Part shown: positions 28,497 through 33,508 of the stretch, piece by piece
How the letters are laid out: the number at the start of each line of letters is the position of its first letter
Position numbering within the stretch: position 1 is the first letter of the stretch
Assembly: GCA_030655145.1 (NCBI GenBank)
Contig: JAURWD010000108.1
Span: 1-35,702, forward strand
DNA from: Ferruginibacter sp.
GTDB lineage: Bacteria; Bacteroidota; Bacteroidia; Chitinophagales; Chitinophagaceae
Length of the DNA stretch: 35,702 bases
Direction: 5' to 3'
Notes under the pieces: model-generated
Database searches by the model: none
What the model was told of the DNA's origin: nothing
Seen by the model: the letters and a program-made list of their open reading frames with translations, nothing else
Translations under genes and position numbers: made by a program

Positions 28497-28964
28497 ATGC
28501 AAACTCAATTCAACCAAACCGATTGTGATGCAATGGAAAACTTCACAGGGACTAAAAATTTCGATCCGCGGGATCTGCCTTATGATCTCGATGACCTCCT
28601 GACCCGGATACAGGCATCAGCCGGCAAAAAGAGTTTCCTCGTGTTTGATCACAATAAATATCTCACCGTGCCGACACGAAACATTGCTTACTTCTACGTG
28701 AAGTATGAATCTCCAAAAATTGTATGTTTTGATAAGCATGAATATTTTGTCAACTACTCCCTGGAACAGATCCGCAACCTGGTTACTGAGAAACAGTTTT
28801 TCCGGGTAAACAGGCAGTACCTCATTAATTTCTCTGCCATAAAAGAAGTGGAACACTATTTCGCCCGAAAATTATTGGTAAACCTTGTGGTACCCATTGC
28901 CGACAAGATGCTTGTTGCCCGGGAAAAAGCAAGTGGGTTTCTACAATGGCTGGAGAACCGGTAA
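28497..28964 (+). CDS. LytTR-type DNA-binding protein without receiver domain (LytTR-A)
   Basis: 'NIAYFYVKYESPKIVCFDKHEYFVNYSLEQIRNLVTEKQFFRVNRQYLINFSAIKEVEHYFARKLLVNL', the LytTR signature. Confidence 0.9.
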   Translation: MQTQFNQTDCDAMENFTGTKNFDPRDLPYDLDDLLTRIQASAGKKSFLVFDHNKYLTVPTRNIAYFYVKYESPKIVCFDKHEYFVNYSLEQIRNLVTEKQFFRVNRQYLINFSAIKEVEHYFARKLLVNLVVPIADKMLVAREKASGFLQWLENR

Positions 28965-29147: not shown

Positions 29148-29720
29148 ATGAATGCCGAAGAAATTTTAAAATTGCATGTTGCTAAGAGTATCACCATACC
29201 TGGTGAACAGTTTAGTTATTTCTTCTCGCATTTTGAGCAACTCACTTTCAAAAAAGGCCAGGCCATTATTTCAGATGGAGACAAAGTAGAGCACGAGTAT
29301 TTTGTTTTGGATGGATGCCTGAAATCATTCTACCTGAATGACGAAGTGAGGATGTTCATACTACAGTTTGCAATGCCCGGCTGGTGGGCCTCCGACTACA
29401 ATGCGCTCTATAACGGCGGCCGTGCAACCATCAATGTAGATTGTGTTACGAATGCAGAAGTGTTGCGCCTGTCTTCTACCGATAGGGAAAAATTGTGCAA
29501 GGAGATCCACGAGATCGAATACTTCTTTCGCTGGCGTACAAACAAAGGTTATGCTGCAGCTCAAAAAAAGATGTTATCCTTCATGAATAATGATGCGAGG
29601 TCTCGCTACGAAGAACTCATGCAACAATACCCGGCACTGTATAATTTAGTCCCCAAGCACCTGATCGCTGCATACCTTGGCGTTTCCCGGGAAACACTCA
29701 GCAGGCTTTACCACACCTAA
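29148..29720 (+). CDS. Crp/Fnr family transcriptional regulator
   Basis: cNMP-fold 'KKGQAIISDGDKVEHEYFVLDGCLKSFYLND', C-terminal HTH 'VPKHLIAAYLGVSRETLSRLY'. Start at 29148 (MNAEEILK) preferred over 29025. Confidence 0.9.
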   Translation: MNAEEILKLHVAKSITIPGEQFSYFFSHFEQLTFKKGQAIISDGDKVEHEYFVLDGCLKSFYLNDEVRMFILQFAMPGWWASDYNALYNGGRATINVDCVTNAEVLRLSSTDREKLCKEIHEIEYFFRWRTNKGYAAAQKKMLSFMNNDARSRYEELMQQYPALYNLVPKHLIAAYLGVSRETLSRLYHT

Positions 29721-29727
29721 ACACTAC

Positions 29728-29743
29728 TGTGATATAGATCACA
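29728..29743. promoter_or_regulatory. CRP-consensus-like palindrome TGTGATATAGATCACA
   Basis: Both half sites are perfect (TGTGA-N6-TCACA), upstream of yceI and just after the Crp-like gene. Confidence 0.65.
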
Positions 29744-29764
29744 TAATTGCATGCGCATGTTGAA

Positions 29765-29780
29765 TGTGATGTAGGTCACC
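29765..29780. promoter_or_regulatory. Second CRP-like site TGTGATGTAGGTCACC
   Basis: TGTGA-N6-TCACC, 37 bp downstream of the first site; a promoter-like TTCCTTTG follows at 29803-29810. Confidence 0.55.
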
Positions 29781-29867
29781 CTATTACCTGTCAATTCCTT
29801 TCTTCCTTTGTGATGTCAAAGTATTCAAACAAAAATTTAATTATTAAACAATCTAAAAACAAAAAAA

Positions 29868-30419
29868 ATGGACACTCAAACATTCAAATTAGCAACTGCA
29901 CAAAGTGAAATCGCCTGGATCGGCCGTAAAGTAACCGGTGCGCACAATGGAACCATCGCCATCGAAAAAGGATGGCTGAATTTTTCCAACGATCAATTGG
30001 TTGGCGGACAATTCATCATTGACACCACTTCGATCAATATCCTTGACATCAGCGATCCTGCAACCAATGCACAATTTGCCGGGCACCTTGCCTCGGACGA
30101 TTTCTTTTCTTCGGCAAAATATCCAACTGCCAGTTTCGAAATTGTTTCCGCTAAACAAAAAACAGGCGGTAATTATGACATCACCGGCAACCTCACCATC
30201 AAGGACATTACGTACCCGGTAAATTTTGATGCAACAATAGTGAACGACGGACAGACCGTAAATGCATCAGGAAAAATTGTCGTCAATCGTACCCTGTTTG
30301 ACATGAAGTTCCGCTCCGGAAATTTCTTTTTGAATTTGGGAGATACGTTGATCTACAACGAATTTGATTTAAATGTACACATCACCGCCAAAGCTGTTAA
30401 TACAGCCGTACTGGCTTAA
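29868..30419 (+). CDS. YceI family protein, no signal peptide
   Basis: 'SEIAWIGRKVTGAHNGTIAIEKGWLNFSNDQLVGGQFIIDTTSINILD', 'HLASDDFFSSAKYPTASFEIVS', 'GNLTIKDITYPVNFDATI'. Confidence 0.92.
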   Translation: MDTQTFKLATAQSEIAWIGRKVTGAHNGTIAIEKGWLNFSNDQLVGGQFIIDTTSINILDISDPATNAQFAGHLASDDFFSSAKYPTASFEIVSAKQKTGGNYDITGNLTIKDITYPVNFDATIVNDGQTVNASGKIVVNRTLFDMKFRSGNFFLNLGDTLIYNEFDLNVHITAKAVNTAVLA

Positions 30420-30430
30420 AACGAACCATC

Positions 30431-30649
30431 ATGCCATACGTAAAAATTGAGCTCACCCGGGAAGGGGTGAGCAGGGAACAAAAACAAGTTTTGATCAAGG
30501 GGGTAACAGATCTGATCACGAATACACTGAACAAAGATCCGCACCTCACCCATGTGGTGATCCAGGAAATTGACCTGGATGACTGGGGCTATGCAGGAGA
30601 GCAGACTTCGGTATTACGTGAACGGGGAATTTCCGCCAATAAAAAATAA
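30431..30649 (+). CDS. 4-oxalocrotonate tautomerase family protein
   Basis: MPYVKIELTREGVSREQKQVLIKGVTDLITNTLNKDPHLTHVVIQEIDLDDW: Pro after Met and typical small tautomerase length. Confidence 0.9.
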   Translation: MPYVKIELTREGVSREQKQVLIKGVTDLITNTLNKDPHLTHVVIQEIDLDDWGYAGEQTSVLRERGISANKK

Positions 30650-30653
30650 AACA

Positions 30654-31388
30654 ATGAAAAAGCAAACAGTAATAATAACTGGCGCATCATCCGGGATAGG
30701 AAAAGAGATCGCAAAACATTTCCTCGACAAAGGCGATAATGTGGTGATCAATTCTTCGACAGAAGAAAAACTACAAAAGGTATTTGAAGAATTTGGAGCA
30801 GGACAAAACCTTGCAATGGTTGCAGGAAATGTGAGTGACAAAAACACGGGAAAAAAGCTCGTTGCCACTGCAATGGAAAGATTTGGATCGGTCGATGTGT
30901 TGATCAATAACGCGGGCATTTACGATACCAGGCCCTTCCTGGAAGTAACCGAGGAATACCTGGACACCTTTCTAAATACAAACCTGAAAGGAACTTATTT
31001 TACAACGCAGGCCGTAATTCCTCAAATGCTAAAACAGCAGGATGGCGTCATCATCAACATCGGTACGCCGTTGGTAGGCCACGCCCTTGGCGGCGCTCCC
31101 TCAACAGCACCGCTTACCAGCAAAGGAGCCATACATGCGCTGACGCTGCAGCTCGCGGCTGAATTCGGGATCAATAACATCCGGGTGAACACAGTGGCAC
31201 CTGGTGTTATCCGCACGCCAATGCATGGCGAAGATGCCGACCAGAGAGCAGGACTTCATTTGCTTAATCGCGTGGGTGAGGTGGAGGATATCGCAGAGAT
31301 GGTCATCACGGTGGCGAAAAGCCGGTTCATCAGTGGTGCCATTATAAACGTAGATGGTGGCATGGCGGCCGGTCATAACTTAAACTGA
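30654..31388 (+). CDS. SDR family oxidoreductase with atypical active site
   Basis: 'VIITGASSGIGKEIAKHF', 'NNAGIYDTRPF', 'VNTVAPGVIRTPM', 'INVDGGM'; the YxxxK position reads PLTSK. Confidence 0.92.
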   Translation: MKKQTVIITGASSGIGKEIAKHFLDKGDNVVINSSTEEKLQKVFEEFGAGQNLAMVAGNVSDKNTGKKLVATAMERFGSVDVLINNAGIYDTRPFLEVTEEYLDTFLNTNLKGTYFTTQAVIPQMLKQQDGVIINIGTPLVGHALGGAPSTAPLTSKGAIHALTLQLAAEFGINNIRVNTVAPGVIRTPMHGEDADQRAGLHLLNRVGEVEDIAEMVITVAKSRFISGAIINVDGGMAAGHNLN

Positions 31389-31457: not shown

Positions 31458-31838
31458 ATGAAAAACAACCAGGCAGATATTGACGTCATCAGCAATGCAC
31501 TTGAGCAGTTTTACTTCAAGGGCATTTACAAAGGAGATCTTGATTTACTCAACCAGGTATTTAATGAAGGTGCGTTGCTGTTCGGTGACGTAAAGGGGCA
31601 ACCTTATGCAAAAACACTGGAAGTATATTTGGAGGGTGTAAAGAACCGGGTAAGCCCGCAACATTCCGGCAAGCCGTTTAAGGGGGATATCCTTTCGATA
31701 AAAGTAATTAACTCGATAGCGATAGCTGAAGTAGCAGTGAAAATGTACGAGTTCAATTACCAGGAGTTTCTTTCCTTTCACCGCATTGATGGCAAATGGC
31801 TCCTCGTCAACAAAATGATGAGCGATGTAGAAAACTAA
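31458..31838 (+). CDS. NTF2-like / putative lumazine-binding family protein
   Basis: 'ISNALEQFYFKGIYKGDLDLLNQVFNEGALLFGDVKGQPY...FHRIDGKWLLVNKMM'. Start at 31458 (MKNNQAD); the track start 31422 lies in the hairpin. Confidence 0.8.
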   Translation: MKNNQADIDVISNALEQFYFKGIYKGDLDLLNQVFNEGALLFGDVKGQPYAKTLEVYLEGVKNRVSPQHSGKPFKGDILSIKVINSIAIAEVAVKMYEFNYQEFLSFHRIDGKWLLVNKMMSDVEN

Positions 31839-31849
31839 AAAAACACGCT

Positions 31850-32929
31850 ATGTGGTACAACACGCGAGCAACAGAAATACTCGGGATCGATTATCCAATT
31901 ATGCAGGGGCCGTTTGGTGGCGGACTATCAACCGTAGCATTGGTAGCAACGGTTTCGAATGCAGGTGGTTTGGGCGGCTATGGCGCCTATACCTTAAGCC
32001 CGCAGGAGATCTACGAGGTTGATAAAAAAATAAAAGCGGCGACGAACAGGCCGTATAATCTTAACCTCTGGGTTTCTGATTCGGATGCTATTGATGGTAC
32101 GGTTTCAGACGAATATTTCGAAGGCGCGAAAGCACTCTTCAAACCGTATTTTGATGAATTGGGGATTCCACTTCCCGAAAAGCCAGCTCCTTTTAAATCA
32201 CGTTTTGAAAACCAGGTTGAAGTGATATTGTCTATACGTCCAAAAGTGTTCAGTTTTATGTTTGGTATTCCCTCAGCAGATATTTTGGAGCAATGCCGCA
32301 GGCTAGGTATTAAAACGATCGGTGCGGCCACAACCCTTGATGAAGCGATCGCTTTGGAAACTGCCGGCGTGGACCTGGTCATCGCTTCGGGCTTTGAAGC
32401 TGGTGGTCACCGGCCCTCCTTCCTGGCTCCATCGGAACAGTCAATGCACGGCACGTTTGTGCTCACACAACTTATCAAAGAAAAAATAACAACACCGGTT
32501 ATTGCTGCAGGCGGTATCGCCAATGGACGTGGTATTGCAGCAGCACTCACCCTGGGTGCATCAGCGGCGCAAGTAGGAACTGCCTTCCTGGCTACTGATG
32601 AATCCGGCGCCGTACCCATTTACCGGCAAATGTTATTTTCAGATGCAGCAAAATACACAACCTTAACCCGTGCATTTACGGGTAGGCTTGGCCGTGGTAT
32701 CACCAACAGGATCGCAAAAGAGTTGTCCGGGAAGGAGAAAGAATTTTTACCGTTCCCCTTGCAAACCACGTTTATGTCATCGCTGAGAAAGGCGGCCATC
32801 GAACAGCAAAAATCGGATATGGTGTTGTTTTGGGGAGGACAGGTCGCTCCAGTATTGAAACATACCAGGGCGGCCGACCTCATGCATTCCCTCGTACAGG
32901 AAACTGGTGATATCCTGGCAAACAGATGA
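31850..32929 (+). CDS. Nitronate monooxygenase (2-nitropropane dioxygenase family)
   Basis: 'YPIMQGPFGGGLSTVALVATVSNAGGLGGYGA', 'VIASGFEAGGHRPSF', 'VIAAGGIANGRGIAAALTLGASAAQVGTAFLAT'. ATG at 31850. Confidence 0.93.
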   Translation: MWYNTRATEILGIDYPIMQGPFGGGLSTVALVATVSNAGGLGGYGAYTLSPQEIYEVDKKIKAATNRPYNLNLWVSDSDAIDGTVSDEYFEGAKALFKPYFDELGIPLPEKPAPFKSRFENQVEVILSIRPKVFSFMFGIPSADILEQCRRLGIKTIGAATTLDEAIALETAGVDLVIASGFEAGGHRPSFLAPSEQSMHGTFVLTQLIKEKITTPVIAAGGIANGRGIAAALTLGASAAQVGTAFLATDESGAVPIYRQMLFSDAAKYTTLTRAFTGRLGRGITNRIAKELSGKEKEFLPFPLQTTFMSSLRKAAIEQQKSDMVLFWGGQVAPVLKHTRAADLMHSLVQETGDILANR

Positions 32930-32956: not shown

Positions 32957-33508
32957 ATGGAAACTTCATCCAAAAGAAATATGATCATTCCCCGGGAGCT
33001 TTTTAGCAGCTTACCTGGTTTCAAAGAAGGCAACCTTTCAATGATGCCTTATAGCAGAGAAAATATTGATACGGAAGTTGAGAAAAAAGACAAGACTACA
33101 AAATTCTTTCAAAATTACCTTCAATCGATCCTGGATGAAACTTTACAGAAATTTATTACGCCAACAGGCAAGCAGAGCTTTCTTGTTTTCAAACATAATA
33201 AGTACATCCCGATACCAACAGAAAGTATCGCTTTCTTTTACGTCAAATATGAATCCTCTATTATTGTGACATTTGACCGGCAGGAATATTTTGTGAATTA
33301 TTCGCTGGATGAAATACAGCAACTCCTAAGTGACAGGCTGTTTACCAGGCTAAACAGGCAGTACGTCGTCAACTTCAATGCGATCAAAGAAGTTGAACAT
33401 TACTTTGCACGCAAGCTGTTGGTAAACCTCACGATTCCAACCCAGGAGAAAGTGCTGGTGTCCAAAGAAAAGGCGAGTGGCTTTTTGAATTGGTTGGAGA
33501 GCAGGTGA
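32957..33508 (+). CDS. LytTR-type DNA-binding protein without receiver domain (LytTR-B)
   Basis: Closely matches LytTR-A: 'SIAFFYVKYESSIIVTFDRQEYFVNYSLDEIQ...RLNRQYVVNFNAIKEVEHYFARKLLVNL'. Confidence 0.9.
   Translation: METSSKRNMIIPRELFSSLPGFKEGNLSMMPYSRENIDTEVEKKDKTTKFFQNYLQSILDETLQKFITPTGKQSFLVFKHNKYIPIPTESIAFFYVKYESSIIVTFDRQEYFVNYSLDEIQQLLSDRLFTRLNRQYVVNFNAIKEVEHYFARKLLVNLTIPTQEKVLVSKEKASGFLNWLESR

Follow-up and report, generated by a model that had tools for sequence, protein, structure and literature searches.

The window, by which we mean the entire 35.7-kb stretch of DNA that was analyzed, carries on its forward strand a gene encoding a 190-aa Crp/Fnr-family regulator (29148..29720), as judged from its open reading frame (ORF), Pfam, an AlphaFold2 (AF2) model, and its orthologs. 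Downstream on the same strand lies an apparent operon led by a yceI-like gene (29868..30419; Pfam YceI, E 4.9e-25), which is kept next to a pair of predicted operators located between the regulator gene and the operon. The yceI-like gene is followed by genes for a 4-oxalocrotonate tautomerase-family protein (30431..30649; Pfam Tautomerase, TIGR00013), a short-chain dehydrogenase (SDR; 30654..31388; Pfam adh_short), a lumazine_bd_2 (SnoaL/NTF2-like) protein (31458..31838; Pfam PF12893), and a nitronate monooxygenase (NMO)-family protein (31850..32929; Pfam NMO). The order yceI-tautomerase-SDR-lumazine_bd_2-NMO is retained together with the operators in most close relatives, and its gene content suggests that this may be a detox operon. 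The unit formed by the regulator gene and operon is flanked by two mutually similar LytTR-domain proteins that lack a receiver domain (28497-28964 and 32957-33508). Both LytTR-domain genes are also found around a Ferruginibacter ortholog of the regulator (L075), and they were not found near other orthologs.

The regulator gene begins with an ATG codon and its product terminates in GVSRETLSRLYHT, which includes the recognition helix SRETLSR. A longer TTG start is probably unused, because the orthologs align from the same ATG start. Pfam cNMP_binding (PF00027) matches the protein above cutoff (E 1.8e-9), while the same search returned no Pfam HTH domain, presumably because the protein's own HTH domain stops at the recognition helix. 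The AF2 model is a confident CRP fold ending at this helix (pLDDT 92.9), with a long central helix (residues 121-147) followed by an HTH (170-177/181-188), and a fold search with the model matched CRP, GlxR, and FNR. The protein therefore has both hallmarks of the Crp/Fnr superfamily, a cyclic-nucleotide-binding-type beta-roll domain and a C-terminal HTH. Its only cysteines are at positions 57, 99, and 117. Among solved structures, the nearest both in sequence (E 2.6e-24) and in fold (30% identity) is 3dn7, a cyclic nucleotide binding regulatory protein of Cytophaga hutchinsonii, which shares a WWxSDY motif with the window protein but has a TPEYLSE helix rather than an RE-type helix and lacks C99 and C117. 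The literature on Riemerella includes mention of a Crp without an HTH.

The initial annotation had placed two CRP-type palindromes ahead of yceI, and our search recovered both at the same positions: an upstream operator TGTGATATAGATCACA (29728..29743), with no mismatches to TGTGAN6TCACA, and a proximal operator TGTGATGTAGGTCACC (29765..29780), with a single mismatch, neither of which is assigned to a strand. There are no further sites with 0 or 1 mismatch elsewhere in the window. By simple base counting, ~0.03 perfect matches are expected per window, along with ~0.002 occurrences of a second match with ≤1 mismatch inside 60 bp. Sites with two mismatches are not enriched in the window (10 found vs 16 expected), so the argument rests upon the close, strong pair and its conservation. 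A pattern search over the 5.3-Mb genome located perfect GTGATNTANNTCAC at only three places, namely the two operators and one intracoding match (L087); the latter was set aside as an operator candidate due to its location inside an ORF. We also rejected the set of genomic TGTGAN6TCACA sites with one mismatch as a regulon, as these are only mildly enriched (114 vs 72 for the reversed control).

The loss of the palindromes from related genomes had been specified beforehand as an outcome that would count against their function. Relatives were gathered from 398 genomes of the order, 395 of the phylum, and additionally the GTDB species collection, which yielded a close group of 29 distinct proteins with >60% identity (63-100%, window included). 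These come from four Bacteroidota classes, with hosts including Ferruginibacter, Chitinophaga, Taibaiella, Pedobacter, Sphingobacterium, Chryseobacterium, and Chryseolinea. GTGAN6TCAC was present just downstream of the regulator gene in 26/29 members, and was absent there in L084, L115, and L118, the first of which has no such operon downstream. The refuting outcome was therefore not observed. The site consensus is TGTGATNTANNTCACA, with the Chryseobacterium operator having the CGTGATCTACATCACG form, and some relatives carry the operator upstream of the regulator gene instead of downstream. Roughly half of the close relatives have a counterpart of the window's upstream operator, positioned either 36-37 or 27 bp before the proximal site: the offset is 37 bp at six loci (window included), 36 bp at two loci, where the site is degenerate, and 27 bp at three loci that belong to one genus group, with no second site in the others. 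Since it is variable or absent, the upstream operator is likely auxiliary. The 37-, 36-, and 27-bp offsets are themselves about one helical turn apart, yet each leaves the tandem sites roughly half a turn out of phase; a 37- or 27-bp offset differs from the usual synergistic tandem-CRP geometry. In the wider subfamily, the perfect operator is often followed at a distance of exactly 23 bp by a degenerate asymmetric second site (TGTGAN6TCCTT or similar), as seen downstream of the regulator gene at L055, L059, L060, L065, L067, and L070.

A candidate -7 element, TTCCTTTG (29803..29810, forward strand), matches TAnnTTTG with one mismatch, having TT where TA is expected, and its TTTG is invariant and at a constant distance from the operator across 19 aligned loci. 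The operator center lies exactly 34.5 bp before TTTG in 24/26 operator-bearing close relatives, the exceptions being L052 and L113, and when the downstream sequence was shuffled 100 times the largest number of loci sharing any one distance was 3. This constancy is maintained across diverged sequence: among the aligned loci, identity is 81% for the operator, 91% for the half site, and 43% (pairwise mean) for the 22-bp spacer, with spacer pairs falling to a minimum of 18% while the operator, TTTG, and spacer length are all kept. In the close relatives, the distance from the regulator stop codon to the operator varies, whereas that from the operator to the promoter is fixed. The TAnnTTTG element of Flavobacterium psychrophilum spans -12 to -5 (PMC9723704). 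With that placement (TTTG at -8..-5), the proximal operator would be centered at -42.5, or at -41.5 if TTTG occupies -7..-4, and the upstream operator at about -78.5/-79.5. Thus, the class II activator position near -41.5 suggested in the initial annotation is supported by the exact 34.5-bp distance. Among distant relatives (33-60% identity), a perfect operator is found 56.5-57.5 bp from TTTG at up to 23/29 loci, which is near a class I position.

The classical specificity residues of this superfamily are R180 and G184 in CRP and V208 and S212 in FNR, with E. coli operators TGTGATCTAGATCACA and TTGATN4ATCAA, respectively. Arg181 of the window protein is equivalent to CRP R180, and the protein pairs an R-E-x3-R helix (R181-E182-x3-R186) with a TGTGAN6TCACA operator in the manner of CRP. 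We examined the association between helix and operator in 179 Bacteroidota relatives, seeking operators within 300 bp of each gene. GTGAN6TCAC adjoins the gene in 66/80 relatives having Arg at window residue 181 (0.65 expected), with TTGAN6TCAA at background in this group, while the relatives without Arg181 have GTGA in 2/99, TTGAN6TCAA in 22/99, and otherwise nothing. Since the non-Arg181 paralogs go with TTGAN6TCAA, the half-site difference between CRP and FNR recurs within this family. One counterexample, L177, has an RE helix with a TTGA site. When the association was tested on a tree, there were 3 phylogenetically independent pairs, none of which run against the rule, too few for significance. 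As an example from the genome that contains the window, the short Crp/Fnr paralog L224 (contig 294) has the helix TPETLSR and an FNR-type palindrome, TTGATCTTTGTCAA, located 21 nt after its stop codon and 57.5 bp from TTTG, followed by an NAD-binding-type gene. No other RE-type recognition helix was found among the Crp/Fnr-type (cNMP-domain) proteins detected in this genome; L222 does carry an SRET string, but comparison with its relatives L220 and L221 places this outside the recognition helix. Both the association and this exclusivity support the earlier proposal that the R-E-x3-R helix reads the palindromes. With no other RE helix found and GTGATNTANNTCAC confined to three genomic places, the regulator looks local.

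From these comparisons, we consider it likely that the 29148-29720 protein is a class II activator of the yceI operon that acts through the 29765-29780 site with assistance from the upstream site. A presumably dimeric local activator would bind the TGTGATNTANNTCACA-type operator via its R181-E182-x3-R186 helix, and protein bound at 29765-29780 would overlap or abut the -33 region of a Bacteroidota sigma-A promoter. The bound regulator would then recruit RNA polymerase in class II fashion, from a transcription start that we infer from the -7 element, such that yceI and the downstream tautomerase-SDR-lumazine_bd_2-NMO genes are transcribed, while the operator at 29728-29743, 37 bp further up, would serve as an auxiliary site. 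Overall, the regulator very probably serves to switch on the yceI operon locally. The main alternative is that the regulator binds both operators to repress the operon until an inducer releases it. The same overlap with the -33 region would suit repression, the upstream site could aid in occlusion, and detox operons of other phyla are often under the control of repressors. However, the distance between operator and TTTG stays exactly the same even though the spacers have diverged, whereas repressors tolerate variable spacing, and the alternative 56.5-57.5-bp distances in relatives fall near the class I position. Activation is therefore favored, and we regard repression as rather unlikely.

It is much less probable that the operators are read by a separate global cAMP-CRP and that the adjoining regulator gene is incidental. 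The operator does equal the E. coli CRP consensus and the genome encodes four Guanylate_cyc domains, but none of the other Crp/Fnr-type proteins found there has an R-E-x3-R recognition helix, GTGATNTANNTCAC is essentially limited to the yceI promoter, and the operator and regulator gene remain adjacent across four classes. The notion that the palindromes are RNA hairpins, acting either to terminate transcription of the regulator gene or as an attenuator, and not DNA operators is hardly credible, because even though they are perfect inverted repeats shortly past a stop codon, there is no terminator-like site at the palindromes and no Rfam match in the window, their position is fixed relative to the -7 element rather than the stop codon, and the operator is upstream of the regulator gene in some relatives.

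For the local activator favored here, the input is probably not cAMP. The initial annotation had remarked upon the lack of an obvious cAMP motif in the effector domain, and our alignment agrees, as the cAMP-contacting residues of E. coli CRP (Glu72, Arg82, Ser83, Thr127, and Ser128) are not conserved. An invariant Asp83 occupies the Glu72 position, close relatives have K, R, V, or P at the position of Arg82, and this is followed by Ala93 where CRP has Ser. Similarly, the protein scores 26.1 bits against the NCBIfam CRP equivalog, for which the cutoff is 266. These features support its description as a local Crp/Fnr-superfamily member that appears to have CRP-type DNA specificity without the CRP effector signature. 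With regard to other potential signals, Cys is present at C99 in 89% and at C117 in 77% of the operator-bearing Arg181 members, compared with 25% and 13% in the others, although both cysteines also track phylogeny. We surveyed the first genes behind the operators at 37 loci picked for diversity, so that the counts are not frequencies: DJ-1/PfpI 13, YceI 9, RidA/L-PSP 4, SDR 3, lumazine_bd_2 2, and a quinone-reductase-like flavodoxin fold, a glyoxalase, and DoxX with 1 each. This set points to electrophile or quinone stress. The enrichment of C99/C117 together with such stress-type first target genes makes electrophile/thiol sensing plausible, and we tentatively suggest that the regulator might sense a reactive electrophile or quinone through these cysteines.

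The window protein resembles E. coli CRP in operator sequence and length, in its R-E-x3-R helix, and in a class II position near -41.5. It differs from CRP in its 190-aa length, in ending at the recognition helix, in its nonconserved cAMP residues, in being local rather than global, and in a promoter containing the Bacteroidota -7 element TAnnTTTG. Its S185 corresponds to FNR S212, but unlike FNR it lacks an N-terminal [4Fe-4S] cysteine cluster. The Porphyromonas gingivalis protein CrpPg has been described as a cAMP-independent Crp homolog that acts as a global regulator through a box similar to the one used by E. coli CRP (PMC12040651). Like the window protein, CrpPg is a Bacteroidota Crp homolog that is, per that report, independent of cAMP and has an E. 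coli CRP-like binding box, but it belongs to another subfamily (PDB 2GAU) and is global rather than local beside its operon.

Our search of the open-access literature found no published operator for this short Crp/Fnr subfamily, and nothing directly relevant to this operon in Bacteroidota. Bacteroidota have many short Crp/Fnr proteins, with up to ~50 candidate places in a genome in an initial search. One broader scenario, which we put forward only as a possibility, is that there is a Bacteroidota-wide family of short Crp/Fnr proteins, often with an operator that directly follows their own gene and precedes the target operon, in which recognition-helix residue 181 would switch between GTGA and TTGA half sites and the Arg181 branch would be a cAMP-independent electrophile/quinone sensor using C99/C117. 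Because its operator is conserved and keeps a fixed distance from the promoter, both the targets and the mode of action of this uncharacterized regulator can be predicted, and the link between helix and operator gives a rule for inferring the operators of many sister proteins. The operator positions further suggest that the unusual sigma factor of Bacteroidota can operate with CRP-like geometries of both class II and class I.
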